This document shows positions 236 through 19,267 of a stretch of 25,156 bases of DNA, piece after piece. The DNA is taken from positions 1 to 25,156 of the IMG/VR virus record IMGVR_UViG_3300049811_000652; one strand, 5' to 3'. Positions within the stretch are counted from its first letter, which is position 1. The number at the start of each line of letters is the position of its first letter. This DNA is from a virus. Below the pieces are notes generated by a model. It was not told the origin of the DNA and did not search any database. It saw nothing but the letters and a program-made list of their open reading frames with translations. The translations under genes and the position numbers were made by a program.

Positions 236-3200
236 TCACAGGTTCCGCCTCGCTCGTTCAAGTGCCGAGGCCATCTCGGCGGTGATCTGCCCCTGCGCGC
301 GGCGGAACGAGCCCGCATCCGGCGTCGCGATGTTGAAAGTCACCATGATCGGCGCAGCCTGCTCGCCCCGCTGGTCATAGGCGGCGGTCTCCTTGCGGTT
401 CAGCACCCGCTCGCCGGTCTGGAGGATGGCCGGGACCTCGCCGGGCCGGATGTAGCCGCCGCCATGAAGGCGCGGCGCACCCGCGAACAGCATCGCGGGG
501 ATGTGCCGTCCGGGTCCGCCCGCGCCGACCAGCCCGCCCTCGTGGAACAGGCCGGCGAAGATCTTGCCGAGTTCACCGAAGATGTCGCCGCCGGTCGCCA
601 GCGTCGGCGCGTTGCCGCCGAACAGGAAATTCTTGAGCGGGTTCATCACCGCGAGCTTGATCAGCTCGTTCATGATGTCGTTGATCGCCGCCTGGCCGGC
701 ATCCGCCCACGATTTCCAGTCGGTCTTGCCCTGCGCCAGCAGCGTTCCGAAGCGGTCGAGCGCATTGCCGATCGCACCCTGCAAGGCTCGCTGCGTCGCT
801 TCCTGCCGCTGAAGTTCCGTCGTGAGCTGCTGCACCCGGACGGCGTTCGCCACGATGGCCCGACCTTCCTCGCTCGCGAGGTCGATGCCGCGCCGCCGCA
901 GATCCTGTTCGGCGCGGATCGTGGCCAGCACCGTCTCGCGCTGCTGGGCGGACGCGCCGATCAGGCCGATCTGGGTTTCGATCAGGGCGATCTCGGCGCG
1001 CTGATCCTGCAAGGTGACTTGCGCCTCCGCCTGGCGCTCAAGCGCGAACTGGCGGCGGGCTGCGGCGAGCGCGACCTGTCCCTCGGCTCCCGCCGGATCG
1101 ATCCCTTGCCGCCGAAGTTGCTGCTCGGCGCGGATCATGGCGATGGCTTCCGACCGTGCCGAGGCTCCCTGCTTCAGCAGTTCGACCTCGCGAGCGAGAC
1201 CGGTGTTCTGCTGCTCATAGTCGAAGGCCGCCTCGCGGCCCGCCGTCTGCCGCCCCAACTGGTTGAGCCGTCTGATCTGCTCGCGGGAATAGCTGGCCTC
1301 GGGATCGTTCGGATCGATGCCGAGCCGCTTCAGCTCCTGCTCGAAACGCAGCTGATCGACGCCCTCGCGGCGCGCGGCGGGGCCGCGCCTGACCAGCGAC
1401 AGTTCCCGCTCACGCAACGCGATCTCGTCGCGGCGTCGTTCGATCCCCTGAAGCAGGTCCGTGCGGTTCTGCTCGCGGTAAAGCTGTTCATAGGCTTCGC
1501 GCGTGCGGTCGATGATGCGTCCGAGCTTCTCCTTGGCCTCGCCCTCCGCCAGCGTCTGCGCCGTGATCAGCGGGCGCAGCGCCTGCTCGACCTGCATGAT
1601 CTGCTGGGCGCGCTGGGACGAGAGCGCGCCCGATGCGATCGCTTCGTTCAGGCGGCGCTGACCGTCGATCTGCCGGCCAAGTTCGGATACCTGACGGGCG
1701 GCCTCGACCGCCTGTTCGGCGATCCGTTCCCTTAAAGCCTGCCGCGCGCGGGTCTCCGCGTTGACACCCTCGCGGGCCTGATCGACGAGCCCCTGGCGGC
1801 GTGCTTCCGCGCGTGCGGCGGCCTCAGCGCTTTCGAGATAGGCCTCGGCCAGCGAAAGCGTGGCGCGGATCGAGATTTCGGTGGCGGAGGTCTGCCCCAC
1901 CACTGCCTGCGTCGCCGCATCCACCGAGGGTCGGTAGCGGGCGAGTTCCGTGATGACACGCCGATAGGCCGCTTCGACCTCCGCCACGTCAGCCAGTTTC
2001 GAGCGGACCAGCGGATCGGCGAGCGCAGCGCGCAGCACGCCTTCCTGCGTCCGCAGCCGCTCGATCTCGCGCGCGCCGGGATTGGTGTCGCGGGCGATCT
2101 CGCCGGCGCGGACCGATTGCTCGTTGGCGCGGGCCTCCGCGGCGATCCGACGGGCGCGCTCCTGTTGGTCGTTGAGCTGCCGTTCGAGTTCAGCGATCCG
2201 CCGCTCGACCTGAGGCAGCATGAGCGGGACGACATTGCCGCGCACGTTCGCCCTCAGGCGCTCCTGCTGCCAGCGCAGCAGGTCAAGTTCCTCGGTCGGC
2301 GTGCGGCCATCCACGGCCCGGTCGACAGCCTTGCCGAGCGCGTCGAAGGCGTTCGAGGCCGAGCGCCCGACGAACTGCCAGGCCCGGCCGAGTGCATTGA
2401 CCGCCTGTTCTGCGTCAGCCAGCGAGGGCGCGAGCGCGTTCAGGATGACGCGCTGCGCCTCCGCCCGGTTGTTCTGGTCGACCAGCGTGCGGACATAGGC
2501 GCGGGTGCGATCGTCCAGGAACCGGATGCGGTCGTTGAGTTCATCCGCGCCGCGCAACGGATCGGCCAGCGCGCGGGCGAGTTCCTCCGCGCCCTGCCTG
2601 GTCTCGACGCCGAGCGTGACGCCAAGGTTGCGCGAGACCGCGATGGCGCGGCCCATCTCTTCCGCGCCGATCTTGCCGGTGCGCAGGAAGGCGACCTGCA
2701 TGTCGCGCGCCGACGACACCGAGACCTTGCCGGCCTCCGCGGAGGATTGCGCGACCAGTTCCAGCTGCGCGGCGGTCGCGCCGGACGCACGGCCGACGCC
2801 CGCGAGCGCCGTGGAGACTGCCCGTGTCGAGGCGTCATTGGCGAACCACGCCGCCGTCAGCACGCCAACCGAGACCGCGACGCCCGCGATGACGTCACCG
2901 ACCACGCCGATGGCGGAGCCGAGCGTCATGATCGTGCCGCGCAAGCCGCCGAAGGCCTGCGTCACCTGTCCGCCCTGCTGCATCAGGATGGTCATCGGCG
3001 ACATGCCGGTGGACATCGATGCGATCACGTCGTTCACCGTGTACTGAAGCGTCATGACCTGCTGGGTCGTGAGCTTCGAGGTGGCGCCGACGCCCTTGAT
3101 CGCCTGCGCGGTCTGATCGAAGCGCGATTTCGACAGCGCATTCGCCGCCGCCTGCTCGGCGGTGGTGATCGCGCCACGGCTCGCGAGCGCGGCATGCTCG

Positions 3201-3592
3201 GCGAGTTCGGCATTGAGCCGGTCCTGCGCGGCGGCGAGCGGATCAGGCGTCGCCCGCAGCGCCCGGGCTCGGGCCTCATAGCGTTCCGCTTCCCGCGCGG
3301 CCTGTTCGAAAACCTCGGCTGACGCGCGCGCCGAACCCGCCGCTTGGCGGTCGACGCCCAGAACCTGATTGAACCGCCCTTGCGCGGCGTCGGCCTGCGC
3401 GGCCATGCGTGCGGCTTCCGCCAGGCGCTTGAACCGGGCGGTTTCCCGATCGGTCGCGGCTCCCGTCTTCTCAAGCGCCCGATCGACCTGTCCGAAGGCC
3501 TGCGTGCCCGCCTGTCCCACCTCCTCGAAGGCGCGCTTGACCTCCGCCTTGCCCTCGACGCCGAGGCGGATCGAGACATTGGTGGTGGACAT
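236..3592 (-). CDS. Phage tail tape measure protein
   Basis: This 1118-aa protein sets siphovirus tail length: it is the scaffold round which tube subunits polymerise and is ejected with the DNA. Residues 1-170 are helical and charged. Residues about 175-250 (TLQYTVNDVIASMSTGMSP, then MTILMQQGGQV and a long hydrophobic Gly/Val/Ala stretch) match the N-terminal signature of TMP_2-type tape measures. Residues 250-950 are Arg/Glu/Gln-rich coiled-coil-like sequence with three exact 72-residue repeats. The end (TDWKSWADAGQAAINDIMNE, HEGGLVGAGG, GERVLNRKE) is like lambda gpH C-termini. I chose ATG 3592 because MSTTNVSIRLGVEG looks like a tape measure N-terminus, but no Shine-Dalgarno precedes it. 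The frame stays open upstream through a DUF1799-like chaperone domain, with a GTG at 3826 and the frameshift site at 3928, so a larger product is possible. The C-terminus looks complete. Confidence 0.92.
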   Translation of the reverse strand: MSTTNVSIRLGVEGKAEVKRAFEEVGQAGTQAFGQVDRALEKTGAATDRETARFKRLAEAARMAAQADAAQGRFNQVLGVDRQAAGSARASAEVFEQAAREAERYEARARALRATPDPLAAAQDRLNAELAEHAALASRGAITTAEQAAANALSKSRFDQTAQAIKGVGATSKLTTQQVMTLQYTVNDVIASMSTGMSPMTILMQQGGQVTQAFGGLRGTIMTLGSAIGVVGDVIAGVAVSVGVLTAAWFANDASTRAVSTALAGVGRASGATAAQLELVAQSSAEAGKVSVSSARDMQVAFLRTGKIGAEEMGRAIAVSRNLGVTLGVETRQGAEELARALADPLRGADELNDRIRFLDDRTRAYVRTLVDQNNRAEAQRVILNALAPSLADAEQAVNALGRAWQFVGRSASNAFDALGKAVDRAVDGRTPTEELDLLRWQQERLRANVRGNVVPLMLPQVERRIAELERQLNDQQERARRIAAEARANEQSVRAGEIARDTNPGAREIERLRTQEGVLRAALADPLVRSKLADVAEVEAAYRRVITELARYRPSVDAATQAVVGQTSATEISIRATLSLAEAYLESAEAAARAEARRQGLVDQAREGVNAETRARQALRERIAEQAVEAARQVSELGRQIDGQRRLNEAIASGALSSQRAQQIMQVEQALRPLITAQTLAEGEAKEKLGRIIDRTREAYEQLYREQNRTDLLQGIERRRDEIALRERELSLVRRGPAARREGVDQLRFEQELKRLGIDPNDPEASYSREQIRRLNQLGRQTAGREAAFDYEQQNTGLAREVELLKQGASARSEAIAMIRAEQQLRRQGIDPAGAEGQVALAAARRQFALERQAEAQVTLQDQRAEIALIETQIGLIGASAQQRETVLATIRAEQDLRRRGIDLASEEGRAIVANAVRVQQLTTELQRQEATQRALQGAIGNALDRFGTLLAQGKTDWKSWADAGQAAINDIMNELIKLAVMNPLKNFLFGGNAPTLATGGDIFGELGKIFAGLFHEGGLVGAGGPGRHIPAMLFAGAPRLHGGGYIRPGEVPAILQTGERVLNRKETAAYDQRGEQAAPIMVTFNIATPDAGSFRRAQGQITAEMASALERARRNL
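881..1528 (-). repeat. Three 216-bp (72-codon) coding repeats in the tape measure gene
   Basis: The protein motif IRAEQ-x-LRR-x-GID recurs at exactly 216-bp steps. The GID-containing tetrapeptides are encoded at 881-892 (RGID), 1097-1108 (QGID) and 1313-1324 (LGID). Each unit continues with an acidic segment and a helical run ending in an Arg/Gln-rich stretch. Identity is clearest over about 25 residues and the DNA has diverged, so this is an old protein-level repeat and not a recent duplication. Unit borders are arbitrary. Since tape measure length sets tail length, each unit may correspond to a fixed tail increment (inference). Confidence 0.7.
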
Positions 3593-3928
3593 GGGCGGCG
3601 TTGCTCGATCGCGATTGGGACGGCCGGCGTCGCGGCCATAGGCGGCCACGATGATCGGCTCGATCTCGGGAAGGATGTCGGCGAGCAGCGGCGAGGACGC
3701 ATCCATGGCCTCAGCCAGGGCGAGCACCGCGCCGAAGTCGATGGCGTAGACGCCGCCCATCACGGCGCGAACCTGTCCCGCGCAGCGGCGGATGACTTCC
3801 CAGGCGAGAAGCCCCTCGGCCGTCACCGGCGCGTGCTCGACGTAGGTGCAAGCCCCGCACCGCGATGGACAGGCGGCGCAGTAGCCATCGCCGCCCTCGA
3901 AGTGCCAGCGCGCGAGGGCGATCAGACG
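3593..3928 (-). CDS. Frameshift-expressed extension of the tail assembly chaperone (GT-type, DUF1799-like)
   Basis: This is the -1 frame entered at the slippery heptamer 3934-3928. It gives 112 codons: RLIALARWHFEGGDGY, a Cys cluster (CAACPSRCGAC), then EGLLAWEVIRRCAGQVRAVM and GGVYAIDFGAVLALAEAM. The Gln-Val-Arg, Met-Gly-Gly and Asp-Phe-Gly-Ala pattern resembles DUF1799, the T-type chaperone domain expressed by frameshift in lambda/HK97-like phages, which ties tail tube subunits to the tape measure. It has no good start of its own (only GTG 3826 without Shine-Dalgarno), which supports expression by frameshifting. Unusually there is no stop before the tape measure ATG at 3592, so a frameshifted ribosome would continue into that gene. 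Confidence 0.65.
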
Positions 3929-4299
3929 TTTTTTTCATCGAGCCTCGTCAGGGCCGGGCCGACATAGAGCCGGTCGATGGCGTCGAAGGCGGGCCAGACC
4001 TCGAGCAGCTGATTGATGGCGACCGGGTTCGGATCGATCGGCTTGCCGCCGGCATCGCCGATGCCCTCCCACGCCACGATGCCGCTCAACGCGAGCGAGC
4101 GCGTGAAGGCCGCGCCGGCAGCGACGGTGGTGCTCCTGTCAAGCGGCTGATCGCCCTCAACCTTCGTGCCGAGAGACTCGGCGGCGGCTGCGCGGGCGAC
4201 CAGCATGTCGGCGACCGAGATCGGCCGGAACTGGATGCGCACGCCCGGCAGGATGTCCAGCCAGAACGGATCGCGGGATGGTGTCGAGAGCTTGAGCAA
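3922..4299 (-). CDS. Tail assembly chaperone (G-type)
   Basis: This 125-aa protein lies between the tail tube and tape measure genes, the standard place for the G chaperone of siphoviruses, which holds the tape measure and recruits tube subunits during tail assembly. The start is TTG 4299-4297, preceded by a perfect AGGAGG with 5-nt spacing. The N-terminus (LSTPSRDPFWLDILPGVRIQ) describes a substitution-tolerant beta-rich start followed by an Ala-rich helical body, as in Rhizobium-type tail chaperones. The last codons run GAA AAA AAC GTC TGA, so a slippery A AAA AAC lies just before the stop. Function is inferred from position, size and the frameshift signal, since direct sequence similarity is modest. 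Confidence 0.8.
   Translation of the reverse strand: MLKLSTPSRDPFWLDILPGVRIQFRPISVADMLVARAAAAESLGTKVEGDQPLDRSTTVAAGAAFTRSLALSGIVAWEGIGDAGGKPIDPNPVAINQLLEVWPAFDAIDRLYVGPALTRLDEKNV
3928..3934 (-). promoter_or_regulatory. Programmed -1 ribosomal frameshift site (A AAA AAC)
   Basis: Seven A residues followed by C (minus strand 3935-3928) form the heptamer A AAA AAC in the zero frame of the tail chaperone, two codons before its TGA at 3924-3922. Slippage by -1 bypasses the stop and joins the G-type chaperone to the DUF1799-like frame. Position and sequence match the known frameshift signals between the two chaperone genes of lambda- and HK97-like phages. I did not identify a clear downstream stimulatory stem-loop by eye. 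Confidence 0.75.
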
Positions 4300-4321: not shown

Positions 4322-5569
4322 TCAGTAGGACGCGACGTCGTTGGTGAGCACGCAGGTCGCGGCGCGGTTCAGCACCGGATCGATCGCGGCCTGGAATGCG
4401 AACGCGGCCTGCACGCCGCCCGGCCCCTGGATCTGACGGTCGCCGCGGGGCAGGAAGACCCGGTGCGCGGTCCAGACCAGCGAAGCGGCTGCGCCAGCTG
4501 CCCAGCGGAACTGAAGCTCGCACGGCAGGCGGTTGGTCGCCTGATCGAGCAGGACGCGGTCCTCGAAGCGGGTGGTGATATTGCCGGTCAGGGCGATGAT
4601 CCCCGGATCGGCATCGGCGATGCGCCCGTCGCTTCGGATCACCTCGACCGCTTCGAGGTTGTTCGAATAGCTGAGTTCCGCCGAGATCACGTTGCCGAGC
4701 GCCACGTTGTTGCGGCGGACCTCGCCCTGGAACTGGCCGAAGCGTTCCAGCACAAACTCGGTGAGCGTGCCGGCCTGCGCCGTCGCGGCGATGGTCTCGC
4801 CCTGCGCCATAATGTTGAGCGAAGCGGTGAGCAGCCCGGATCGCTGCGCCTGAACCTGGAAGCTGTTGATGCGCGCGCCGTAGTTCATGCCGAAGAAGGG
4901 CACGTCGGGAAGCTGGACCTCGATGGACATCGAGGGGAGAGCCTGCGCGCCCGAGAACCAGGTGTGGCTGTTGGCGCCGCCCGACAGCGTCGCCCCCGAC
5001 AAAGTGGCGCGCGTCGGCGCGTTCGTCGCCAGCGTGCGCGCATTGCCGCCCGGTCCCAGCGCCTTGGCAGTCAGATTGACGACCGCGCCAACCGCCGCGG
5101 CCGCAACGTTCGCGCTCGGATTGATGATCGCCGCGAGCGCGGTGGCGGTGAGCGCCGCCGTGCCGCCGAGGTTGAACTGCTGGCCCGTCGCGCCGGAAGC
5201 TACGGCGGTATAGACGGTGCCATCGACCGTCACCGTGTCATTGACCAGAAGGTTGGCGGTCAGCGTGATCGTGGCGGTGGCTGCGGTCGCCGCGACCGTC
5301 GTTGGCGCGCCCATCAGGCCGCGCAGCCAGACACCGATGTTGCGCGTATCCACGGGAACGACGAGATCGCCCATGTTGGTGATCACGTCATAGACCGGCG
5401 CCAGCGGCTCACGGCCAAAGCCGAGGAGTTCGCTGGCAATCAGGCCCTGTTCTTCGCCGATGTTGACCGAGGCGAAGGGCATGCGGCGAAAGCCGGTGCC
5501 GGGCGGTGTGCAATAGGTGGTTTCAAACACGGCGGCGAGAGCCGCGTTCACGCCGCGTGCGCGAGGCAT
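4322..5569 (-). CDS. Phage tail tube (major tail) protein
   Basis: This 415-aa protein is the subunit that polymerises into the non-contractile tail tube. ATG 5569 is preceded by AAGGAG with 8-nt spacing (AAGGAGTATCGATATG). Residues 1-90 (NVAALAAVFETTYCTPP-like start, 'PFASVNIGEEQGLIASELLG', 'DLVVPVDTRNIGVWLRGLMG') and 200-415 (MSIEVQLPD, FQVQAQRSGLLTASLNIMAQ, FEDRVLLDQATN, LQFRWAAGA) are typical of Phage_tail_tube_2-like proteins. Residues about 91-199 form an inserted, Ala/Thr/Gly-rich beta domain (VNDTVTVDGTVYTAVASG). It is followed directly by the chaperone gene 22 nt downstream. The upstream neighbour would normally be the tail terminator, now separated by the GTPase-like insertion. Confidence 0.85.
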   Translation of the reverse strand: MPRARGVNAALAAVFETTYCTPPGTGFRRMPFASVNIGEEQGLIASELLGFGREPLAPVYDVITNMGDLVVPVDTRNIGVWLRGLMGAPTTVAATAATATITLTANLLVNDTVTVDGTVYTAVASGATGQQFNLGGTAALTATALAAIINPSANVAAAAVGAVVNLTAKALGPGGNARTLATNAPTRATLSGATLSGGANSHTWFSGAQALPSMSIEVQLPDVPFFGMNYGARINSFQVQAQRSGLLTASLNIMAQGETIAATAQAGTLTEFVLERFGQFQGEVRRNNVALGNVISAELSYSNNLEAVEVIRSDGRIADADPGIIALTGNITTRFEDRVLLDQATNRLPCELQFRWAAGAAASLVWTAHRVFLPRGDRQIQGPGGVQAAFAFQAAIDPVLNRAATCVLTNDVASY

Positions 5570-5737: not shown

Positions 5738-5819
5738 GCGTTGTTCTGCGTTGTTCTGATCCGCATTGACAGTGCGATCTACGGTCTGTAGAAAGCCTAG
5801 GAACAACGGAGAACAACGC
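5738..5819. repeat. Two pairs of inverted AGAACAACGC-type repeats flanking a promoter
   Basis: On the plus strand GCGTTGTTCT occurs twice in tandem at 5738-5747 and 5748-5757 (the two are joined head to tail). The reverse complement appears as GGAACAACGG (5800-5809) and AGAACAACGC (5810-5819). The four sites form a near-perfect two-copy inverted repeat separated by about 42 bp, and the promoter-like elements lie in the gap. The right pair overlaps the ribosome binding site and ends one base before the ATG. This is the arrangement expected of operator sites for an autoregulator, or of iterons. Confidence 0.7.
5766..5794 (+). promoter_or_regulatory. Putative sigma70-type promoter of the GTPase-like gene
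   Basis: A perfect -35 TTGACA (5766-5771) is followed after 17 bp by TAGAAA (5789-5794, four of six consensus -10 bases). It sits exactly between the two inverted repeat pairs and 26 bp upstream of the ATG at 5821, so repeat-bound protein would be expected to block it. The Shine-Dalgarno is GGAG at 5808-5811. Confidence 0.6.
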
Positions 5820-5820
5820 C

Positions 5821-8082
5821 ATGACCGATCGCAAGTTCACTGCCTCGAAGACCAGATCAAACCGCCCCGGCTGGAGCGTGACATTCCGGCACCCGGTTCG
5901 CCGAGACAGCCGAAATGAGTGGGGCCTCAAGGTCAGAAAGGGGCTTGGAACCTCCGACGATGCAGAAGCCGACCGACTGGTCGGGCAACTGAATGAACTG
6001 CTGCAGAACGAGTCCTGGTGGTCTGGCGATCGCCGCAAGGATGCAGCACTCGAGTTCGACGACATCGTGGTTTCCGCATTCTTCGACGGTATCGAAGCAG
6101 AAGTGCATGATGCGGAAGCGAGCCGCTCGGCCGTCATTGCTCTCCCCAACCGCGACGACGGCTACAGCACGGTCTTATTTCTCGGAACAACGGGAGCGGG
6201 CAAGACTACCTTGCTTCGCCATGTCATCGGTTCTGACCCGGAGACCGATCGTTTTCCGTCGACATCGACAGCCAAGACGACCACTGCCGATATCGAGATC
6301 GTCGTTGCACCCGGCGACTTCTCCGCTGCGGTGACGTTCATGCCAGAGCACGAGGTACGCGCGCACATTGATGAATGCATCGAGGAGGCTTGCCTCGAAG
6401 CGATCCAAGGCAAGTCGGACCCGAAAATCGCCGCAGCGCTTCTCGAGCATCGGGAGCAGCGGTTCCGCCTTTCGTACATTCTCGGCGGATGGAATACAGC
6501 CCACGAGAGCGACGACGACGATTTCGCTTTCGAAGACGAGCCAAAGCCGGACACGGCGATCAGCGAAGACGAGGAAGTCACGGCGGAAGAGATCGAGAAC
6601 CAACGCATCCGCCTGCTGGGCTTTGTCAATGCCATCAAGGACCTTGCGAAAGAGACGGGCACTTTCTGCGAGGCACAGATCGGTCGGCTCAGCGACGAAA
6701 AATCGGCTGATGGCAAGGCCGCCTGGCTTGAGCTGTTCGGCGTCGAAGCATTCAAGAACCCTCGCTTCTCGACGCTCGCGCTAGACCTGATGGACGAGGT
6801 AGCCGAGCGCTTCGACCGCATCGAGGTTGGGAACACCGAGCGATCCGCAACCGGGTGGCCGACCATCTGGACCTACAATAGCGACGACCGTGATGACTTC
6901 CTTGCGGCTGTTCGCTGGTTCTCGAGCAACCATCACAAGCAGTTCGGTCGGCTGCTCACGCCCCTTGTCGACGGAATCCGCGTTCAAGGACCACTCTACC
7001 CTGATCTTGATGAACAGGACGAAGAGTTGAAACTGGTGCTGCTGGACGGTCAGGGCCTTGGTCACACCGCAAGCAGTGTCTCCTCGGTTTCCACTCGCGT
7101 GACCAACAAGTTCTCGCGCGTCGATATGATCCTCCTGGTTGATAATGCGCAGCAGCCGATGCAGGCCGCCCCGCTTGCCCTCCTTCGAGCCGTTGGCAGC
7201 TCAGGCTTCGCAGACAAGCTAGCGATTGCCTTCACCCACTTTGATCAGGTCAAGGGTGCGAACCTTGGCTCTTTCGACCAGAAACGCGACCACGTCCTGG
7301 GCTCGGTCGGCAATGCCATCGTGAGCCTGCGCGACATTGTGGGTGCAGGTGTTGCTGGTGCTGTCGAACGGCAGGTCGATGGTCATTCCGTGTTTCTTGG
7401 CGGATTGGACAAGCCGACCGCCAAGCTGCCTAGTGGCTTCAAGCGCCAACTCGAGAAACTGGTCGAAATGATGCGCTCGTCGGGCGCACCGAGCGAAGAG
7501 ACGGACTGCAGCCCGATATACGAGCTAAAGGGCTTGGAAATCGCGATGCACGACGCAATCGACGCATTCAGAGATCCTTGGCGGGCTCGTCTGGGCATTT
7601 CCTACCACGATGGTATCTCCAAGGAGCACTGGACGAGGATCAAGGCCCTGAGCCGCCGCCTCGCTTCGCGTTGGGCGGACGAGTACGACAATCTGACACC
7701 AGTGGCCGATCTTCTCGCTCGGCTACAGGAGGAGGCATCAAAGTGGCTAGACCGACCTGCCGACTGGACGCGGCTTCCGCACACGGATGATGAACGCGAG
7801 TTGGCTCTCGACCGGATCCGCAGAACAGTATTCGCGCGCCTGTACGATCTGACAAAAACAAGGCTGACAGACGACCAAGTGACCGGCTGGCGAGAGGCAT
7901 TCGATCACAGTGGGCCAGGGTCAGCAATGCGCAGGGCCCACACGATTGAGACGATTCATGACGTGGCCGCGCCCCGGATCAGTGCCGCAATGACTGCGGA
8001 CGCACGTCTGTTCCTGAGCCGCCTGCATGAAATCCTACGTGAAGCGATCAAAGAAGCTGGAGGGCAGATCGCTTCAAGCTAA
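5821..8082 (+). CDS. Large P-loop GTPase-like protein of unknown function (cargo gene)
   Basis: This 753-aa cytosolic-looking protein has no signal or membrane segment. Residues 8-66 (SNRPGWSVTFRHPV, GLKVRKGLGTSDDAEADRLV) resemble the Arm DNA-binding N-terminus of tyrosine integrases, without any integrase catalytic domain. Residues 116-129 hold a Walker A/G1 motif (LFLGTTGAGKT). Residues about 146-160 (PSTSTAKTTTADIEIV) could be switch I. An acidic insert (DDDDFAFEDE region, about 230-260) follows. DGQG (409-412, after LVLL) fits G3, and THFD (472-475, after LAIAF) fits a G4-like motif. The rest is helical and ends at 753. This suggests a dynamin- or septin-like GTPase with long insertions. 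It lies opposite to the tail operon, between tail terminator and tail tube genes, with its own promoter. Its GC content (about 57%) is lower than that of its neighbours. Function is unknown; a phage-borne defence or host-takeover role is inference. Confidence 0.85.
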   Translation: MTDRKFTASKTRSNRPGWSVTFRHPVRRDSRNEWGLKVRKGLGTSDDAEADRLVGQLNELLQNESWWSGDRRKDAALEFDDIVVSAFFDGIEAEVHDAEASRSAVIALPNRDDGYSTVLFLGTTGAGKTTLLRHVIGSDPETDRFPSTSTAKTTTADIEIVVAPGDFSAAVTFMPEHEVRAHIDECIEEACLEAIQGKSDPKIAAALLEHREQRFRLSYILGGWNTAHESDDDDFAFEDEPKPDTAISEDEEVTAEEIENQRIRLLGFVNAIKDLAKETGTFCEAQIGRLSDEKSADGKAAWLELFGVEAFKNPRFSTLALDLMDEVAERFDRIEVGNTERSATGWPTIWTYNSDDRDDFLAAVRWFSSNHHKQFGRLLTPLVDGIRVQGPLYPDLDEQDEELKLVLLDGQGLGHTASSVSSVSTRVTNKFSRVDMILLVDNAQQPMQAAPLALLRAVGSSGFADKLAIAFTHFDQVKGANLGSFDQKRDHVLGSVGNAIVSLRDIVGAGVAGAVERQVDGHSVFLGGLDKPTAKLPSGFKRQLEKLVEMMRSSGAPSEETDCSPIYELKGLEIAMHDAIDAFRDPWRARLGISYHDGISKEHWTRIKALSRRLASRWADEYDNLTPVADLLARLQEEASKWLDRPADWTRLPHTDDERELALDRIRRTVFARLYDLTKTRLTDDQVTGWREAFDHSGPGSAMRRAHTIETIHDVAAPRISAAMTADARLFLSRLHEILREAIKEAGGQIASS

Positions 8083-8124: not shown

Positions 8125-8565
8125 TCAATTCAAGGGATCGGCGGTGTCGTAGGTCGCGACGATCACGACATCGGCGAAGCGGCCGGCTTGACTGCCCGTG
8201 GTCTCGATGTCCTCGGAGGACGGGGCCTCCGCCTCGATCCAGTCGACAAGCCCGCCGAGTCTGCGATTGGCGATGATCGCCGCACCAATGGCGGCAAGCA
8301 TCTCGTCGAGCACCTGTTCGCGCGTGAGCGTGGCGCTCTCGAATGCGGCGATCTCGACGGGAATGCGATGGGTGTAGAGGTAGGATACCGGCGAGAGCGG
8401 GACGTCGGGCTCGCCCGGATCGCCATCGCGGATCACGACCAGTCCCCCCGGCGGAATGCGCTCCGGTTTGGCGAGATTGCGCTTCACCTCCGCGCCCGGC
8501 AGGGCATCGGCGACGAGCGCCTTGACCGCGCCGAGGACGGTTTCGCGTTTCGAGGGCATGGACAA
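8125..8565 (-). CDS. Tail terminator-like (tail completion) protein
   Basis: This 146-aa protein (144 aa from the internal ATG at 8559) sits between the DUF6441 gene and, beyond the inserted cargo gene, the tail tube gene. That is where siphoviruses carry the terminator that caps the finished tail and joins the head. The sequence (RIPPGGLVVIRDGDPGEPDV, HRIPVEIAAFESA, LDEMLAAIGAAI) is like a protein widely annotated in alphaproteobacterial prophages and gene transfer agents, sometimes mislabelled 'acyl-CoA transferase'. The 441-nt frame begins at TTG 8565, only 7 nt after the preceding gene's TGA. Neither start has a strong Shine-Dalgarno, so translational coupling is likely. Confidence 0.75.
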   Translation of the reverse strand: MSMPSKRETVLGAVKALVADALPGAEVKRNLAKPERIPPGGLVVIRDGDPGEPDVPLSPVSYLYTHRIPVEIAAFESATLTREQVLDEMLAAIGAAIIANRRLGGLVDWIEAEAPSSEDIETTGSQAGRFADVVIVATYDTADPLN

Positions 8566-8572
8566 AGAGCTT

Positions 8573-9205
8573 TCAGGATCGCGGCCAGTGCCGCGCGATC
8601 AGGGTTGGCACGCGCGCGGCTTGCCGCCTGGCGATCGCATCAATGTTGAGCCGCTTGCGCAGCATGACCTGGGGCACGAGCAGGAACACGATCACGGTTG
8701 AATGACCGGTCTTGCGCCTGTTCGCTGCCGCCAATCCTCGCGTGTTGAGGCGAGCCGTATCGGCGACCAGCAGCGAAGGGCCGTGCTTGCGGTAGACGAA
8801 GCGCAGCCGCATGCCGGTGCGTCGCTCCCAGCCGCCGGGCGTGATGCGTGACGCGCGCCCGTTCGGCCCACGCCCACGCGCTCCTGCGGCTGGTGTCGGG
8901 ATCGCCAGCCAGAAACCTCGCGCTGATCGGATCGTGACGCCGCGATCAAAGGCGTCGATCAGCTTCGGGGCCTTCGACCAGACGAAGGCTGCGGCCTCGA
9001 CGCTTTCGCCGACCTCGGGGAACACCTTGCCCCGCCATGTCCGCGAGAGGCGTTCGCCAAGTCCCCACGCCACCACGTCTTCGCGCAAGCGCTCTTTCAA
9101 CTCGGTTGACGCGTCGCGCATCGCGGATGTGACGGCGCGCTCGATCCCCTGCTGCGTGCCCGCCAGCGCCTTGCGCATGTCGGGACTTTCGATGCTGAAG
9201 CGCAT
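8573..9205 (-). CDS. DUF6441 family phage structural protein
   Basis: This 210-aa protein matches the DUF6441 family found in the head-tail connector region of alphaproteobacterial prophages. Recognisable features are the start MRFSIESPDMRKAL, an N-terminal amphipathic helix (TSAMRDASTELKERLREDVV), the WRGKVFPEVGESVEAAAFVW core, FWLAIPTPAAG, and the basic C-terminus (RRKTGHSTVIVFLLVPQVML). Its place between the gpFII-like attachment protein and tail terminator suggests a minor tail or neck component, comparable with HK97 gp10-type proteins. It overlaps neither neighbour: 4 nt separate it from the upstream stop and 7 nt from the next start. No catalytic motif is visible. Confidence 0.8.
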   Translation of the reverse strand: MRFSIESPDMRKALAGTQQGIERAVTSAMRDASTELKERLREDVVAWGLGERLSRTWRGKVFPEVGESVEAAAFVWSKAPKLIDAFDRGVTIRSARGFWLAIPTPAAGARGRGPNGRASRITPGGWERRTGMRLRFVYRKHGPSLLVADTARLNTRGLAAANRRKTGHSTVIVFLLVPQVMLRKRLNIDAIARRQAARVPTLIARHWPRS

Positions 9206-9209
9206 GGGG

Positions 9210-9524
9210 TCAGACCTTCACCGCCTCACAGGTGAGAACGAGCCCCACGGGATCGGATGAGGGCGTCCCAATGACCTTGAAGGTGTCCGCGCCGATCACC
9301 ACGAGATCACCTTCCTCGATTGCAGCGGCTTCCGTCCGGCGCAGGTCGATGAGAACGGTCGCCATCAAGGCGCGGGATGCGCCGAACTCGACCACGGCAT
9401 CCGGGTGGCGGCGGATGACGCGAATGGGGACACCCGGGCCGACGCCGCCCGCCTGCCAGAGCGCGGTCTCGCTAAGGTTCGGATCGGAGAACAGGGTGTC
9501 GAGCGCAGCACGGAAGGCCTCCAC
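9210..9524 (-). CDS. Head-tail attachment protein (gpFII-like)
   Basis: This 104-aa protein begins at GTG 9524, with AAGGAAAGGG just upstream. Its beta-rich sequence (ALDTLFSDPNLSETALWQAG, VPIRVIRRHPDAVVEFG, EEGDLVVIGADTFKVIG) fits the Phage_attach/gpFII family, small proteins that bind the completed head connector and form the docking site for the tail. Length is typical for the family (about 100-120 aa). It stands directly before DUF6441. The capsid decoration gene lies on the other side of the inserted Xre-RES module. Confidence 0.8.
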   Translation of the reverse strand: MEAFRAALDTLFSDPNLSETALWQAGGVGPGVPIRVIRRHPDAVVEFGASRALMATVLIDLRRTEAAAIEEGDLVVIGADTFKVIGTPSSDPVGLVLTCEAVKV

Positions 9525-9583: not shown

Positions 9584-9964
9584 ATGACGGTCCTTTTGTC
9601 TGCCGCCACCCGCCCGGAAGCCGGCCCGGTCGTCACCAAGGCTGTTCTTCGTGCCGCGGATCAGTTGGGCGTGACCGCCCGGATCCTCGCCACCGTCATC
9701 GGTGTCAGCGAGGCGACGGTCTCGCGCATGAAGCGCGGGGAATTCGGTCTTGAGCCTGGGACGAAGCCGTTCGAGCTGGCGGTCCTCTTCGTGCGCCTGT
9801 TCCGCTCCCTAGACGCGATTGCGGGAGGCGACGCCAGGGTCGCGGCAAGCTGGCTCGTCAATCCCAACACCGCTCTCGACGCTCAGCCGATCGAGAAGGT
9901 GCAAACCGTGAGCGGACTTGCCGATGTCATCGCCTATCTGGACGCGCGTCGCGCTCTCGTCTGA
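9584..9964 (+). CDS. MbcA/ParS/Xre family antitoxin of a RES toxin system
   Basis: This 126-aa antitoxin neutralises the RES toxin encoded next to it and usually represses its own operon. Residues about 20-52 form an Xre-like helix-turn-helix (LRAADQLGVTARILATVIGV, SEATVSRMKRG). Residues about 65-126 carry the MbcA/ParS toxin-binding (DUF2384) domain, with the signature 'AASWLVNPNTALDAQPIEKV' and 'VIAYLDARRALV' at the C-terminus. The ATG at 9584 follows AAAGGAG by 6 nt. It overlaps the toxin start by about 41 nt. The pair runs opposite to the surrounding structural genes. Confidence 0.9.
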   Translation: MTVLLSAATRPEAGPVVTKAVLRAADQLGVTARILATVIGVSEATVSRMKRGEFGLEPGTKPFELAVLFVRLFRSLDAIAGGDARVAASWLVNPNTALDAQPIEKVQTVSGLADVIAYLDARRALV

Positions 9965-10700
9965 GTTCCGCCGCTTCGACGGCGCGTGCTGGCGGCTCGT
10001 CGAGGCCCAGCACCGCGTCTCGACCTTGAAGCTGACCGACTCCCTCTCCGAACAGGCCTTGCTCGAAGACCTGATCGAAGAGACGAAACCGACGATCCCG
10101 CCGGACTGCCGCCATCTCGATTTCCTGCTGGCGACGCCGTTCCGATATGGCGCGATCTATCCGACAGGGTCCCGCTTTCGGCGTGCAGGGCGCACGCTTG
10201 GCGTCTACTACGCGGCAGAATACCCAACGACCGCTGTCGCCGAGATGGCGTTCTACCGGCTGCTGTTCTTCGCCGAGTCGCCCGCCACGCCGTGGCCCTC
10301 CGATGCAGCCGAGTACACGGCCTTCTCGGCTGCGGTGTCGAGCGTGCGGCTGCTCGATCTGATGAGCGAACCGCTCTCGCAAGACAGTGTCCTCTGGACG
10401 GATCTCACCGACTACGGTCCCTGCCAGGCCTTCTCTGACGCCGCCCGAGCGGCGGATGCTGACGTGATCCGCTACCAGTCGGTGCGCGATCCGGATCGAC
10501 GGGCCAATCTCGCGATCCTGATGTGCCGCGCCTTCGCAAGGCCCGCGCCGGTCGACCGGCAGACTTGGCGCATTCGGCTAAGCCCATCCGGCGTCCAGGC
10601 CATATGCGAGTTCCCTCGACAGGGGGTTGAGTTTCCGCGTGGAACCTTCGCCGCCGATCCGCGGATCGCGGCCCTCAATTGGGACCGTGGCGACCTTTAG
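9924..10700 (+). CDS. RES domain toxin (NAD+-degrading)
   Basis: This 258-aa toxin belongs to the RES family, which depletes cellular NAD+ by hydrolysis or phosphorolysis and arrests growth. Recognisable parts are the N-terminal WRLVEAQHRVSTLKL, FRYGAIYPTGSRFRR, the core GVYYAAEYPTTAVAEMAFYR with the conserved Glu (about E107), and RYQSVRDPDRRANLAIL with the conserved Ser (about S186), giving the R-E-S residues. ATG 9924 is chosen because GAGCGGA lies about 8 nt upstream; a TTG at 9918 is an alternative. It is translationally coupled to the antitoxin. Its TAG overlaps the TAA of the convergent DUF2190 gene, so the module fits into the structural operon with no spare sequence on this side. Confidence 0.9.
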   Translation: MSSPIWTRVALSSEFRRFDGACWRLVEAQHRVSTLKLTDSLSEQALLEDLIEETKPTIPPDCRHLDFLLATPFRYGAIYPTGSRFRRAGRTLGVYYAAEYPTTAVAEMAFYRLLFFAESPATPWPSDAAEYTAFSAAVSSVRLLDLMSEPLSQDSVLWTDLTDYGPCQAFSDAARAADADVIRYQSVRDPDRRANLAILMCRAFARPAPVDRQTWRIRLSPSGVQAICEFPRQGVEFPRGTFAADPRIAALNWDRGDL

Positions 10701-11032
10701 GCCACCCCGTTCAGCCGAACGCGGCCGATCGTATCGTTGGCGCCGCCTGCCACCGGTTCGGTCGCAGAGCCGATCAGGGTGTTCGATGCGACGACGGTCG
10801 TCGCGAGACGGGCGGCGTTGTCCCAGTAGATGCGCGCGCCGACGGCCCATGCCTGGGACGGCGCCTTGCGCAGTTCGACGACGCCCTCGGTAAGGGTTTC
10901 GACCTCGGCGTTAATGGCCGCCGATCCGGTCGCGATGCCGAAGATCGCGCCGACCAGCAGTCCATCGCCGGAGGCGACCGCATAGGGGGCGGGAAGCGTG
11001 ATGGTGTTGCCGGGCTGGATGTAGCCGCGCAT
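10697..11032 (-). CDS. DUF2190 family capsid decoration/stabilising protein
   Basis: This 111-aa protein starts at ATG 11032 behind GGAG (7-9 nt). Its all-beta, Gly/Ala/Val-rich sequence (RGYIQPGNTITLPAPYAVAS, GDGLLVGAIFGIAT, AINAEVETLTEGVVEL, VGARIYWDN) matches DUF2190 proteins. These are encoded just after the major capsid gene in many prophages and are thought to decorate or stabilise the shell. The sequence is full length. Its stop shares bases with the stop of the convergent RES toxin gene. The upstream capsid gene ends 48 nt away. Confidence 0.85.
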   Translation of the reverse strand: MRGYIQPGNTITLPAPYAVASGDGLLVGAIFGIATGSAAINAEVETLTEGVVELRKAPSQAWAVGARIYWDNAARLATTVVASNTLIGSATEPVAGGANDTIGRVRLNGVA

Positions 11033-11080: not shown

Positions 11081-13060
11081 TCACGCGCCGGGATTGCGGT
11101 AGAGGCCGCGCCAGTCGATCGCCTTCGCGCCGAAGTCGAGGCGGCACTTGATCTCGACACCGTCGACATCGAAGCCGTTGCGCGTCTCGATGTAGGCGCC
11201 TTGCTGGCCTTCGAGATAGGCGTATTCGATGGTGTCGATCTGGGCGGGGTTGGCGGCGAGATACCAGGCCGTGAGGCTCGCGGCATCGAGACGAGGCTCG
11301 GAGATCGGCGTCAGGGTGCGGATAGAGGACGGCACCACGTTGCCGGTCTGGGCGGGCACGAGGTTCTGCGCCACCAGCTGCTCGGCGGCGAGTTCGAGCG
11401 ATGCCGGCACGATCAGATAGGCGGGCCGGACATTGAGGATCGTCTTCTTGTCGAGGCCGGTCTGGCGGGCCATGGCCGCACGCGCCGCGCCGATCGCAGT
11501 GACGCTGAGCGCGGTGGCCGGGTTCGCCAGATTGCCGTGGTTCTGGTGGAACAGCGCGATGGAATCGCTCATGGCGGCGTTGGCCAGGATGATGCCCCAG
11601 ACCACATCGCTCTCCAGCGTCGCGATCGCCGTGCCATACATCGCCGGAATGCGGGTGAAGGCATCGAGATCGTCGTTGATGAGGACCTGCCGGGTGACCG
11701 CGACGACGCGCCCGTAGGTCTCGACCCGGTAGCTTTCGCGCCCTTCGGCGAGGGTGCCGCGCTTGAACTCGCCGCCTTCGTTCACCTTCACGAGCTGCGG
11801 CGCTTCTCCGAGCTGGACACGATGCATCGCCTTGAAGTCGGTCGCGAGCACCTGCCGGCAGAAGGGGACATAGGTGCGCGTATAGGCATCATAGGCCTGC
11901 CGGAGCGTCTTGCCCGTCACAGCGGCGAGGACCTCGGGAAAGTCCGAGGTGGAGTGAAGAGCGCGGGTGGCGATCTCGTCGCGCGACATGCCCCGGACAT
12001 TGACGCCCGAGCTTGAGAGGAACTCGCGGGCATGCTCCACGAGCGTCATGCCGCGATACTCCCGCGCCGGTTCACTCAGAGGGAAGAGCGTCGGCGAGTA
12101 CCGGTGCAGAAGAGCGTTCGACACGGCGTCGCGACGGGTGACGCGTTCGTCGCGGCCGCCGAGCGGGATGCTGACCTGAGGCGAAACCCGCGTCTTCTCG
12201 GCATCGGTCGCGACCTTGTCGAGGATCTCGCTGCGCGCAGCGTCGAGCGTGACACCGCGCTTGACCAGATCGTCGGCGAAACTGCGCTCGAGGTGCAGGC
12301 GACCTGCAAGATCGTAGATGGTTCCGACACGTTCGCGTTCGGAATCGCGCGCGCGGGCGGCGATCGTCTCAGCATCGATCACCGGCGCGCTCGATGCGCG
12401 ATCCTGCGGTTCAGGCGCGGCCTGGCGCGTCTGCGTTTCGGCATTGTCGGTCACAGCGTCGTCCATGGCTGCTTTCTCCTTGGATGGAGCGTCGGCGCGG
12501 TGGACGACGCAGGGGTGAAGGGGCAAAGAACTTTCGGAGGATTTCTCGGAGCGGAAACCCGCCGCCGGATCAGCGCCGATCGGCACTGCGGAAATCTCGA
12601 AGGGCGTCCAATCGACCGCGCGCCACAGCTCGGGCGCGCCGGCCTGCTTGGTGACCTCGAAGCGATGGACCTGGTAGCCGATCGACACCGCACGGATGTG
12701 CCCGGCCTCGACGTCCTTCCAGAGCGACTCGACCTCGGCCCGGTCGGAGAAGCGGACACGGGCGACGCCTCGTCCATTCTCGATGCGGGCGCTGCCCGGC
12801 AAGACCGAACCGATGACGCTGTCGAGCGCGGAGGCGTCATGCACCTTCAGGAGTGGCGCGCCCGCGTTGAGGCGATCGAGGCGGACGGAGCGTGGGTCCA
12901 TCGCCAGTTCCTCGTCGAACGGATCGCCGAAGAAGGGATTGCGGCGCACGCGAGCACCAGTGGACCAGACCACCTCGATGGTGCGCTCGGCCGCATCGAT
13001 CGACGCAGGCAACAGGTCCGCCGCCCGCGTCAGCGGTGGCAGGTCGATATGTCGGTTCAT
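11081..13060 (-). CDS. Prohead protease / major capsid protein fusion
   Basis: This 659-aa protein combines the maturation protease and shell subunit that most phages encode separately. Residues about 25-175 form a herpesvirus-type prohead serine protease domain, with a likely catalytic His at 74 (LLKVHD), Ser at 126 (RAVSIGY) and the FEISAVPIGAD motif. Residues 180-320 are a charged linker resembling a scaffold/delta domain (KEKAAMDDAVTDNAETQTRQ, then helical RARDSERERVGTIYDLAG). Residues about 330-655 form the capsid fold (YRGMTLVEHAREFL, DFPEVLAAVTGKTL, FALFHQNHGN-like motif, AAEQLVAQNLVPAQ). The whole matches the known protease/capsid fusion family. ATG 13060 follows the portal stop by 11 nt with only a weak Shine-Dalgarno. 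Confidence 0.93.
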   Translation of the reverse strand: MNRHIDLPPLTRAADLLPASIDAAERTIEVVWSTGARVRRNPFFGDPFDEELAMDPRSVRLDRLNAGAPLLKVHDASALDSVIGSVLPGSARIENGRGVARVRFSDRAEVESLWKDVEAGHIRAVSIGYQVHRFEVTKQAGAPELWRAVDWTPFEISAVPIGADPAAGFRSEKSSESSLPLHPCVVHRADAPSKEKAAMDDAVTDNAETQTRQAAPEPQDRASSAPVIDAETIAARARDSERERVGTIYDLAGRLHLERSFADDLVKRGVTLDAARSEILDKVATDAEKTRVSPQVSIPLGGRDERVTRRDAVSNALLHRYSPTLFPLSEPAREYRGMTLVEHAREFLSSSGVNVRGMSRDEIATRALHSTSDFPEVLAAVTGKTLRQAYDAYTRTYVPFCRQVLATDFKAMHRVQLGEAPQLVKVNEGGEFKRGTLAEGRESYRVETYGRVVAVTRQVLINDDLDAFTRIPAMYGTAIATLESDVVWGIILANAAMSDSIALFHQNHGNLANPATALSVTAIGAARAAMARQTGLDKKTILNVRPAYLIVPASLELAAEQLVAQNLVPAQTGNVVPSSIRTLTPISEPRLDAASLTAWYLAANPAQIDTIEYAYLEGQQGAYIETRNGFDVDGVEIKCRLDFGAKAIDWRGLYRNPGA

Positions 13061-13071
13061 GTTGCGAAAGC

Positions 13072-14592
13072 TCAGTTGTCGGGATTGTCGGGTTGGCCGG
13101 TGGCGTCAGCCTGCATCACGCCGGTCTTCGTCACGCGCCGCGGATCGCTGTCGAGAATGAGCCCGAGGGCGTCGATTTTGGCGTTCATCGCGGCGATCTC
13201 GGCGAGCACCGCGTCGGGGTTGTGGCCCTGACGGGCGATGGCCTGCGCCAGCGACATGGTGCCCGAGCGCAACGCCAGAAGATCGGCCATCGCGTCCTTC
13301 AGCGGGTCCACGGCTTCGAAGCGCGGCGGCGACCATTCGACCGCAATGTCCGGCCGAGGCAGTTTCCCGGCTGCCCATGCGGCCTGACAGAACCAGACCC
13401 ACATGGGCTGGCAGATAACCGGGATGACGATCTGCCATTGGACGGCATCGATCAGGCGACGAAACTCGACCAGCCCCGCCCGGATCGACGAATAGTTCAC
13501 CTGACTGAGATCGCCGGTCAGCAGCTCGTAGGGCATGCGGAACCCCGCCGCCACGATGTGAAGCTGCGCGCGGAGCCACTCGCCAACGCCTGCCGTCGTG
13601 GCGGGTTGATTGAAGCGGATATCCTTTCCGCCGCGCGCATAGGCGATCAATCCGGGCTCGAACTGTTCGACGCGTTTGCCGTCGGCGTCGACCACCGACG
13701 GGGCGATGCCCTGATTGGTTTCATCGGCGCCAAGCACGATGCCGACGACACAGGCTTCCGTCTTCTTGCGGACCAGTTCGGCCTGCGTCCAGTCATCGAG
13801 ATCACGCAGCGCGCGCATCACCGGCGTGCCCCACGGGACGCCGCGCACCTGCGTGCGCTGTTTCTCGTAGAGATGCAGCACCTCGCTCGCCGGAATGGCG
13901 AGGCTCTCCAGACGTCGGCGCATAGTGACGACGGCGTCGCCAGGGTGCTGGGCATGGAGCCAATAGGCGCGGCGTCGACCGAGGGAATCGAATTCGATGC
14001 CCTGCAGCAGCCGCCCGCCATCGGCGAGATCGCCGTTGCGGGTGTTGTCCAGCAGATCGGCTTCAATGATCTGCACCTGGAGCGGAACGGAGAGACCATC
14101 GCTGAGACGTCGAGGCCGGCGGCGGATCAGCACCTCGCCCGCCTCGATCATCTCCCGGACGGCCAGGGTCTGCAGCCCGAAGATGTCGAACTGCCCGTCG
14201 GCGTCGCAGGCGGCGGACCACTCGGTCCAGAGCCGGTTCACCGTCTCGTCGAGCCTTGCGTCACCCGTCGCAGCGCGCGGAATGATGCCGCTGCCGACGA
14301 TGTTGTTGACCAGCACGGACACGGCCTTTGCCGCGTGCGGATTGTTGCGGGTGAGATCGCGCATGCGATCCCGGAGCAGGCCGCTGGCGGCGGCGATCTC
14401 GGCATCAGCCGATGTTCCCGCCGCCTTCCAGCTGTCGGTGCGCCGTCCCTTGGCCGCGCCGTCATAGGCACGGGCATAGCCATGGGTCTTGGCGCTCAGC
14501 GCCTCGAAGCTGCGCCGCGCGAGCGCCCGCCTCACACCAGCCTCGGGCGCGGCCCATGCCACCATCCGGTCGAGGAAGGTGATCTGGCTCAC
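13072..14592 (-). CDS. Lambda-family phage portal protein
   Basis: This 506-aa portal subunit forms the dodecameric ring at the capsid vertex through which DNA is packaged and ejected, and on which the terminase docks. It matches the Phage_portal_2 (lambda gpB) family: 'ARRSFEALSAKTHGYARAYD', DSWKAAGTSADAEI, RDLTRNNPHAAKAVSVLVNN with IVGSGIIP, AGEVLIRRR, VLHLYEKQRTQVRGVPW, FRMPYELLTGDLSQVNYSS and IRAGLVEFRR. The start is GTG 14592, with its GTGA overlapping the stop of the gpW-like gene. Size is normal. It directly precedes the protease/capsid fusion. Confidence 0.95.
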   Translation of the reverse strand: MSQITFLDRMVAWAAPEAGVRRALARRSFEALSAKTHGYARAYDGAAKGRRTDSWKAAGTSADAEIAAASGLLRDRMRDLTRNNPHAAKAVSVLVNNIVGSGIIPRAATGDARLDETVNRLWTEWSAACDADGQFDIFGLQTLAVREMIEAGEVLIRRRPRRLSDGLSVPLQVQIIEADLLDNTRNGDLADGGRLLQGIEFDSLGRRRAYWLHAQHPGDAVVTMRRRLESLAIPASEVLHLYEKQRTQVRGVPWGTPVMRALRDLDDWTQAELVRKKTEACVVGIVLGADETNQGIAPSVVDADGKRVEQFEPGLIAYARGGKDIRFNQPATTAGVGEWLRAQLHIVAAGFRMPYELLTGDLSQVNYSSIRAGLVEFRRLIDAVQWQIVIPVICQPMWVWFCQAAWAAGKLPRPDIAVEWSPPRFEAVDPLKDAMADLLALRSGTMSLAQAIARQGHNPDAVLAEIAAMNAKIDALGLILDSDPRRVTKTGVMQADATGQPDNPDN

Positions 14593-17780: not shown

Positions 17781-18347
17781 ATGACCCAGCTTTCCGACAC
17801 CCAAGCCATTATCCTGAGCGCTGCTGCGCAGCGCCCCGAACGCATTGCCCTGCCGCTGCCCGAATCCTTACGCGGTGGCGCGGCCGCCAAGGTCGTCAGC
17901 ACGATGATCGCGAAGGGCTTGCTGGAAGAAGTCGAAGTCAACGCACGACGGGGCGAACCGGTCTGGCGCGAAACCGGCGACGGCCACGGCACGACGCTGG
18001 TCGCGACCGATGCAGGCCTTGCCGCCATCGGCATCGAGCCGGATGAAACCGAAACCGCGCGCGCTAGCGCGACAGAAACGCCGCCGCAGGACCTCGCTCC
18101 GGATGGCGACGCCGAAGCCGCACATTCGAAGCGCACGCCACGCGCCGGGACCAAGCAGGCCGCGCTGATCGCCATGCTGCGTGCGCCGGACGGCGCGACC
18201 ATCGAGGAGATCACCACCGCCACCGGCTGGCAGGCCCACACGGTGCGCGGGGCGATCGCCGGTGCGCTGAAGAAGAAGCTCGGCCTCGACGTGACATCCG
18301 AGAAGGTCGAGGGACGCGGGCGGGTTTACCGTCTTCCTGCAGAATGA
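17781..18347 (+). CDS. DUF3489 domain-containing protein
   Basis: This 188-aa protein has two helix-turn-helix-like halves. Residues 1-75 (LSDTQAIILSAAAQRPERIA, LPESLRGGAAAKVVSTMIAK) are a winged-helix-like N-terminus. A charged Glu/Ala/Pro linker follows. Residues about 115-185 (TKQAALIAMLRAPDGATIEE, ITTATGWQAHTVRGAIAGAL, KKKLGLDVTSEKVEGRGRVY) are the DUF3489 domain, which looks DNA-binding. I chose ATG 17781, with GGAGG 6 nt upstream, over the earlier start at 17748. The family is frequent in alphaproteobacterial prophages; its role is uncharacterised, and a regulator is a reasonable inference. A strong hairpin follows the stop. Confidence 0.88.
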   Translation: MTQLSDTQAIILSAAAQRPERIALPLPESLRGGAAAKVVSTMIAKGLLEEVEVNARRGEPVWRETGDGHGTTLVATDAGLAAIGIEPDETETARASATETPPQDLAPDGDAEAAHSKRTPRAGTKQAALIAMLRAPDGATIEEITTATGWQAHTVRGAIAGALKKKLGLDVTSEKVEGRGRVYRLPAE

Positions 18348-18367
18348 ACGCGAACTCAAGGACTCAG

Positions 18368-18391
18368 GCCGTCGCCCCGCCGGGCGGCGGC
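18368..18391 (+). terminator. Probable intrinsic terminator after the DUF3489 gene
   Basis: GCCGTCGCCC-CGCC-GGGCGGCGGC forms a 10-bp stem (one T-G wobble) with a 4-nt loop, 20 nt after the stop. It is followed by TTCGT, a weak T-tract typical of alphaproteobacterial terminators. Its symmetry may also let it stop transcription coming from the minus-strand gene that ends at 18455. Confidence 0.6.
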
Positions 18392-18454
18392 TTCGTATGA
18401 TCGGTCGCAGCAGAGAACCAAGGCAAAATTAGACCCAATGCAAACGCTGATCTT

Positions 18455-19186: not shown

Positions 19187-19267
19187 TGAGCCCCATTATG
19201 CTATGCAGATATTGTTCATTGGTGGCGTGAGAGCCTAAGTCCAATACACTCGCATAGCAAATGCAGG

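Follow-up and report, generated by a model that had tools for sequence, protein, structure and literature searches.

We analyzed a 25,156-bp virus record (the window), in which the genes for a siphophage tail are encoded on the minus strand (Table 1). Between the genes for the tail terminator and the tail tube, and antisense to the tail operon, lies a gene for a 753-aa protein, as described in an earlier, sequence-only reading of this DNA. The lower GC content that this reading attributed to the gene is borne out by the values of 59.3% for the gene and 66.3% for the rest of the window. The dN/dS of the gene (0.05-0.08, for two pairs with unsaturated dS) points to strong purifying selection.

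Table 1. Features of the window around the GTPase gene and its operator
Feature	Coordinates	Strand	Remarks
Tape measure gene	236-3826	-	PHROG 24, E 2e-44
Tail assembly chaperone-like gene	3922-4299	-	
Tail gene, tail-tube position	4322-5569	-	One flank of the insertion; PHROG 290 'minor tail protein', E 3e-50
Complete operator	5738-5819		19-nt inverted repeat, arms 5738-5756 and 5801-5819, 95% complementary, framing the promoter
Upstream tandem half-site pair	5740-5757	+	GTTGTTCT-GC-GTTGTTCT; 10 bp from start to start; adjoins the -35 box on its 5' side
Promoter, sigma-70-type	5766-5794	+	TTGACA (5766-5771), 17 bp, TAGAAA (5789-5794); read from sequence
Downstream inverted tandem pair	5800-5817	-	GGAACAAC-GG-AGAACAAC; covers the expected start of transcription and GGAG, a Shine-Dalgarno-like sequence
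GTPase gene	5821-8082	+	753 aa, ATG start; predicted dynamin-like GTPase with N-terminal DNA-binding-like domain
N-terminal domain	5821-6087	+	Residues 1-89; beta-beta-beta-alpha plus two short helices; arm-binding-like part 8-62; AF2 of the domain alone, pLDDT 83
G1/P-loop GTTGAGKT	6184-6207	+	Residues 122-129
Helical insertion	6346-6813	+	Residues 176-331, between switch-I region and G3; secondary structure of the model
G3-like DGQG	7045-7056	+	Residues 409-412; D409, G412, G414 and H415 invariant
Family hallmark VDNAQQPMQAAP	7138-7173	+	Residues 440-451; nearly invariant
G4-like THFD	7234-7245	+	Residues 472-475; H473 invariant; T472, F474 and D475 at least 90%
Tail terminator gene	8125-8559	-	Other flank of the insertion; PHROG 4204, E 5e-24
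Head/protease gene	11081-13060	-	
Portal gene	13072-14592	-	
Terminase gene	14808-16859	-	

For comparison, we retrieved 80 contigs of related phages via a neighbouring tail gene. Phages with 93-98% identical tail proteins (L065, L067, L068, L070 and others) have an empty terminator-tube junction of 62-139 bp, with no GTPase gene, and two contigs (L078 and L079) contain the same GTPase insert as the window. In a further group (L003-L006, L008, L012 and L022-L024), a GTPase with 80-91% identity is encoded one gene further up, between the terminator gene and the homologue of the gene at 8573-9205, and in L013, a 44% identical copy lies upstream of the homologue of the gene at 9210-9524. Because the junctions occupied in the window, in the L003 group and in L013 differ, there are three different insertion points in the same type of operon. 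Given that near-identical phages have the empty junction and that relatives carry the gene at other junctions, the GTPase gene is a moron, which agrees with the insertion previously proposed from its layout.

Relatives also carry other, unrelated inserts at junctions of this tail operon, which in this phage group is therefore a hot spot for morons. These inserts (L085 8087-10408, L093 7085-11439, L117 7092-9613, L127 6759-8434 and L142 1678-3012) include, by eye, a large signalling-type protein, a transporter-like gene and a phage Gp37-like gene, among others. The window itself harbors a second antisense insert of two genes (9584-10700, plus strand) between the genes at 9210-9524 and 10697-11032; by eye, this is an Xre-type and RES-like toxin-antitoxin pair, and its second gene has no PHROG match. 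It is present in L065, L071, L075 and others and absent from the close relatives L067, L068 and L070, and is thus another moron. Conversely, a 346-aa gene that is absent from the window is found between the homologues of the genes at 9210 and 8573 in L078 (1266-2306) and L079 (4906-5946, minus strand). Elsewhere in the window, the GC content drops to 0.55-0.59, below that of the GTPase region, at 18001-19500 around a 243-aa gene (18455-19186, minus strand), and an AbrB-type antitoxin and PIN-type toxin pair was recognized by eye at 22542-23179 (plus strand).

The three nucleotide-binding motifs on which the original GTPase assignment was based are located exactly at the residues given for them; in 37 homologues, with identities as low as 32%, most of the motif residues are invariant or conserved above 90%. 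G1, KTT and DxxG are conserved, and the G4 motif has the form THF(D/E), without the usual lysine of (T/N)KxD, D475 being changed to E in some Actinomycetota. The hallmarks of the family are DGQGLGH, VDNAQQPMQAAP, FTHFD and the helical insertion. Structure prediction had been proposed as a check, a missing P-loop GTPase core being taken to count against the assignment; the AlphaFold (AF2) model obtained with 37 homologues (pLDDT 85.7, pTM 0.85) contains such a core, with a dynamin-like fold. The solved structures closest to the model are those of the Campylobacter dynamin CjDLP (Z 14.4, 249 residues), followed by mitofusins (Z ~14), Fzo1, SynDLP and BDLP (Z 12.5, 374 residues over 113-749), and generic GTPases rank lower (Z ~10-11). 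In the predicted model, the G domain, with a fold closest to that of dynamins, is followed by a helical neck/trunk region. A search of a viral structure library yielded only giant-virus dynamins, with E-values of 7.5e-4 or weaker. We found no membrane-spanning segment in the protein sequence (highest 19-residue hydropathy, 1.2), and the protein may still bind membranes through amphipathic segments. Thus, judging from the model, the protein is a dynamin-like GTPase; its full membership in the dynamin superfamily is a less firm claim, given a G4 motif devoid of the usual lysine and an action on membranes that is hypothetical.

The N-terminal domain, which the sequence-only reading had likened to an integrase Arm domain lacking a recombinase, indeed shows a distant likeness to integrase arm-binding domains, which recognize accessory DNA 'arm sites' (PMC8138268, PMC4880445). 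In the model, it consists of strands 8-12, 18-28 and 34-41 and a helix, 47-62. The core-binding and catalytic domains of recombinases are absent, and the remainder of the protein is the GTPase. Pfam DUF6538 matches 7 of 25 members weakly (best E 0.0089, below the cut-off), and an hhalign comparison of the domain with DUF6538 proteins gave a probability of 75% (P 2.6e-5) over only 27 columns. The DUF6538 proteins for this comparison were taken from host genomes because no relatives of the L040 integrase were confirmed in viral contigs; in the host genomes, DUF6538 mostly occurs within large open frames, two of which end, by eye, in tyrosine-recombinase-like sequence. A fold search with the domain alone produced generic beta-beta-beta-alpha matches, reaching a Z of 5.6 at most, and the matches listed include no integrase. 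A scan of viral contigs for other proteins with the same domain retrieved only this GTPase. The kinship of this domain with integrase arm-binding domains is therefore best described as suggestive, not proven.

Directly upstream of the gene, we identified a four-site operator and a 19-nt inverted repeat, neither of which figured in the sequence-only reading, even as the start that it assigned to the region, 5738, falls on the left arm of the repeat. In order, the operator comprises two GTTGTNNC sites, TTGAC and two inverted copies 10 bp apart that end beside the ATG. The gene had been credited with its own promoter, and a TTGAC-containing promoter is indeed conserved in divergent upstream regions: the promoter is missed by a strict consensus scan, its -10 box matching only 4/6 positions, and TTGAC is invariant in 21 aligned divergent upstream regions. 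These 21 regions have 21 invariant columns in common, all within the sites and the -35 box. The 10-bp spacing and the GTTGTNNC core are kept in divergent homologues, the two pairs are 44-53 bp apart, and the overall architecture persists at 45% protein identity and across phyla. An RNA attenuator or hairpin was considered and rejected, the left arm being upstream of the promoter and hence untranscribed.

Three or more half-sites were detected upstream of 29 of the 37 long-form homologues (averaging 3.4 in 140 bp; background, 0.26) and of none of the 12 short forms, which are devoid of the N-terminal domain; this joint loss of domain and sites is confounded by phylogeny because the short forms are all actinobacterial. 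GTTGT sites are also missing upstream of two intact long forms (L017 and L034), three long forms from Rhodococcus and the pseudogene L043, and L016 and L059 have two recognized sites each. In the Rhodococcus long forms (L047, L049 and L050), whose N-terminal domain is diverged, a GATAGTAATG stretch is common to all three and an inverted TTGAC...GTCAA element to two; these elements perhaps represent a different operator. In the Rhizobium plasmid copy L016 (9900-9995), degenerate half-sites, GATGTTCC and GGTACATC, accompany a more diverged N-terminus, a possible case of co-evolution of the domain and its sites.

The operator is highly specific for this gene family. Across 57.6 Mb from 12 whole genomes, we counted 23 tandem pairs, and all of them, checked against the gene coordinates, are at a GTPase promoter. 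When 2.9 million viral contigs were scanned at the DNA level alone for the upstream pair followed by TTGAC, 75 stretches were returned. The inverted pair, which completes the operator, is present in 12 of these, and all 12 carry the GTPase gene, including a 47%-identity homologue that had escaped the protein search; the GTPase gene is present in none of the remaining 63, in which the inverted pair is lacking. Among 385 genomes of one class, three complete operators were found, each of them before a GTPase gene. In everything searched, the complete operator is thus confined to the front of this GTPase family.

We searched for a conserved neighbour or partner gene beside the GTPase gene and found none. 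Because no other gene is conserved beside the operator, the encoded protein is the best candidate for its reader, and we strongly infer that the GTPase itself binds these sites. We have moderate confidence that the effect of binding would be repression of its own promoter, which is likelier than activation because the downstream pair covers the expected transcription start and the Shine-Dalgarno sequence.

Homologues with 32-99% identity were detected in 12 viral contigs, 11 plasmids and 44 genome contigs from Alpha-, Beta- and Gammaproteobacteria, Acidobacteriota, Nitrospirota, Planctomycetota and Actinomycetota. The homologue survey that the sequence-only reading had suggested thus reveals a family located on phages, plasmids and chromosomes, at several loci, and not one fixed tail-operon gene. 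In the phylogenetic tree, the copies from Acidobacteriota, Nitrospirota and Planctomycetota nest among the alphaproteobacterial ones, as expected under horizontal transfer, and a Sinirhodobacter chromosome copy (L029, 96% identical) branches inside the phage copies. The distribution is patchy: of 296 genomes from one family, only two contain the gene, and no homologue matched in 50,697 annotated phage genomes. Searches of Pfam, NCBIfam, PADLOC, PHROGs and PDB sequences returned nothing past the P-loop. In three copies (L043, L045 and L063), the GTPase frame is interrupted by stops or frameshifts, such that they look like pseudogenes.

The surroundings of the non-phage copies are rich in defence genes. 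Their 148 nearest neighbours match 309 PADLOC families (E<=1e-10), compared with 68 for 148 random genes, a crude ratio given that the counts refer to families rather than genes and are inflated where families share one protein, and that the control genes come from genomes of the same set but from fewer genomes than the test set. Within the limits of this control, the family is enriched in defence islands and on mobile elements. By eye and by annotation, type I restriction methylase genes are present at six loci and helicase genes at five, and genes for BREX, AbiE, Abi, DNA methylase or a patatin together with a nucleotidyltransferase are found beside plasmid copies. No clear defence system was seen in the plasmid contexts of L014 and L016, and the copies L033, L038 and L014 are in ordinary surroundings. 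Dynamin-like defence proteins are known: in infected Bacillus, DynA causes a delay in lysis (PMC8844932), and the annotated defence systems include Dynamins/Eleos (LeoABC; PMC13335696, PMC11811056). Based on gene neighbourhood, mobility and analogy with these proteins, we consider that the GTPase on balance probably has a defence role.

The GTPase resembles several known groups and differs from each. The best matches to the model, the bacterial dynamin-like proteins (the CjDLP pair, SynDLP, BDLP and IniA) and mitofusin/Fzo1, share the G domain and the helical region; however, the GTPase shows no sequence match to solved chains past the P-loop and is set apart by THFD in place of (T/N)KxD, the helical insertion 176-331, the N-terminal DNA-binding-like domain, the dedicated operator and the lack of a membrane-spanning segment. 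Dynamins/Eleos (LeoA/LeoABC) and Bacillus subtilis DynA are likewise dynamin-like GTPases annotated as phage defence, experimentally so for DynA (PMC8844932, PMC13335696, PMC11811056). The PADLOC LeoBC model, however, touches only the P-loop of the GTPase (residues 107-135, E 0.013), and our GTPase is encoded by a single gene, with no LeoB/LeoC partner or neighbouring dynamin gene, and comes with its own operator and N-terminal domain. With integrase arm-binding domains and DUF6538, it shares the beta-beta-beta-alpha pattern and a (V)RxSLGTxDxxEA motif, but this similarity is weak, there is no core-binding or catalytic recombinase domain, and the sites frame a promoter rather than an attachment site. 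Like prophage morons, the gene has its own promoter, is antisense to the late operon, is lower in GC and is absent from close relatives; unlike them, it belongs to a family with members on plasmids and chromosomes as well and comes as a cassette equipped with a four-site operator of its own. The literature searched, mostly outside subscription journals, describes no fusion of a dynamin-like protein with a DNA-binding or integrase domain. In the sources searched, then, no described family or system matches this GTPase, and a prior description elsewhere is possible.

Taken together, these observations lead us to lean, by a modest degree, towards a single-gene mobile cassette that encodes a soluble dynamin-like GTPase, represses itself through four sites and serves in phage defence. 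The arm-binding-like N-terminal domain would recognize the four sites, spaced by 10 bp, around its own promoter. In the resting lysogen, little GTPase would be made, and this protein would bind the tandem and inverted pairs and thereby keep its own level low. An incoming phage or another invading element would then change the GTP state or drive dynamin-like assembly, such that the protein leaves the operator; the promoter would be released, and GTPase assemblies would accumulate and block or abort the infection. That the trigger is a phage and the output is defence is proposed with moderate to weak confidence. More tentatively still, and short of what we would call probable, the GTPase could represent a defence family not previously described, whose members are dynamin-like and act as their own transcription factors, combining infection sensor, switch and effector in one protein, with an arm-binding-like domain, probably borrowed from phage integrases, that couples the GTP state or assembly to release of the four-site operator.

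Other explanations have to be considered. Under the same autoregulation by the operator, the product could be that of a lysogenic-conversion gene with a role in host stress, for instance, in membrane or DNA maintenance, rather than against phages. The membrane-surveillance roles that Bacillus DynA also has (PMC8844932) and the copies in ordinary surroundings are compatible with such a function, which nevertheless appears rather unlikely in view of the enrichment of defence families in the neighbourhoods, the very patchy distribution and the lack of a membrane-spanning segment. Alternatively, the N-terminal domain could be chiefly an effector or sensor that binds invading DNA, with GTP-driven assembly bridging or compacting it and the operator being a by-product or one target among others. 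The combination of dynamin-like assembly with DNA binding would suit bridging, and four sites in two inverted pairs would permit it. However, the site is long and specific, and because it is essentially unique to the GTPase promoter, both in the whole genomes and in the 2.9 million viral contigs, a general target on invaders is not seen; moreover, the short forms do without the N-terminal domain, so that we regard this possibility as improbable.

The repeats might instead be bound by a host-encoded regulator or constitute an integration or maintenance site, the N-terminal domain having some other role. This option draws on the fact that operator binding by the GTPase is deduced from sequence and that the family link of the N-terminal domain is weak. 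Against a host regulator stands the conservation of the operator across phyla and across phages, plasmids and chromosomes, exclusively ahead of the GTPase gene and unaccompanied by any other conserved gene. We also rejected an interpretation as insertion-site repeats or transposon ends: the repeats are absent from the empty phage junctions and confined to the 5' side of the gene and are therefore not insertion borders. Overall, we deem this option very unlikely. Least probable of all, and hardly credible, is an addictive or selfish toxin-like GTPase held in check by its own operator and of no benefit to the host. A single, horizontally mobile, autoregulated gene would fit this description, but there is no antitoxin partner, and a lone autorepressed gene gives no post-segregational killing; the low dN/dS, for its part, shows only that the gene is functional.

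To conclude, few anti-phage proteins are as poorly understood as the dynamin-like GTPases, and the self-repressing GTPase proposed here bears on the question of how single-gene defence proteins stay quiet until infection. A candidate regulator, its exact DNA sites and a widespread protein family are now sufficiently defined for direct testing, and the operator provides a DNA-only detector of divergent members of this GTPase family.
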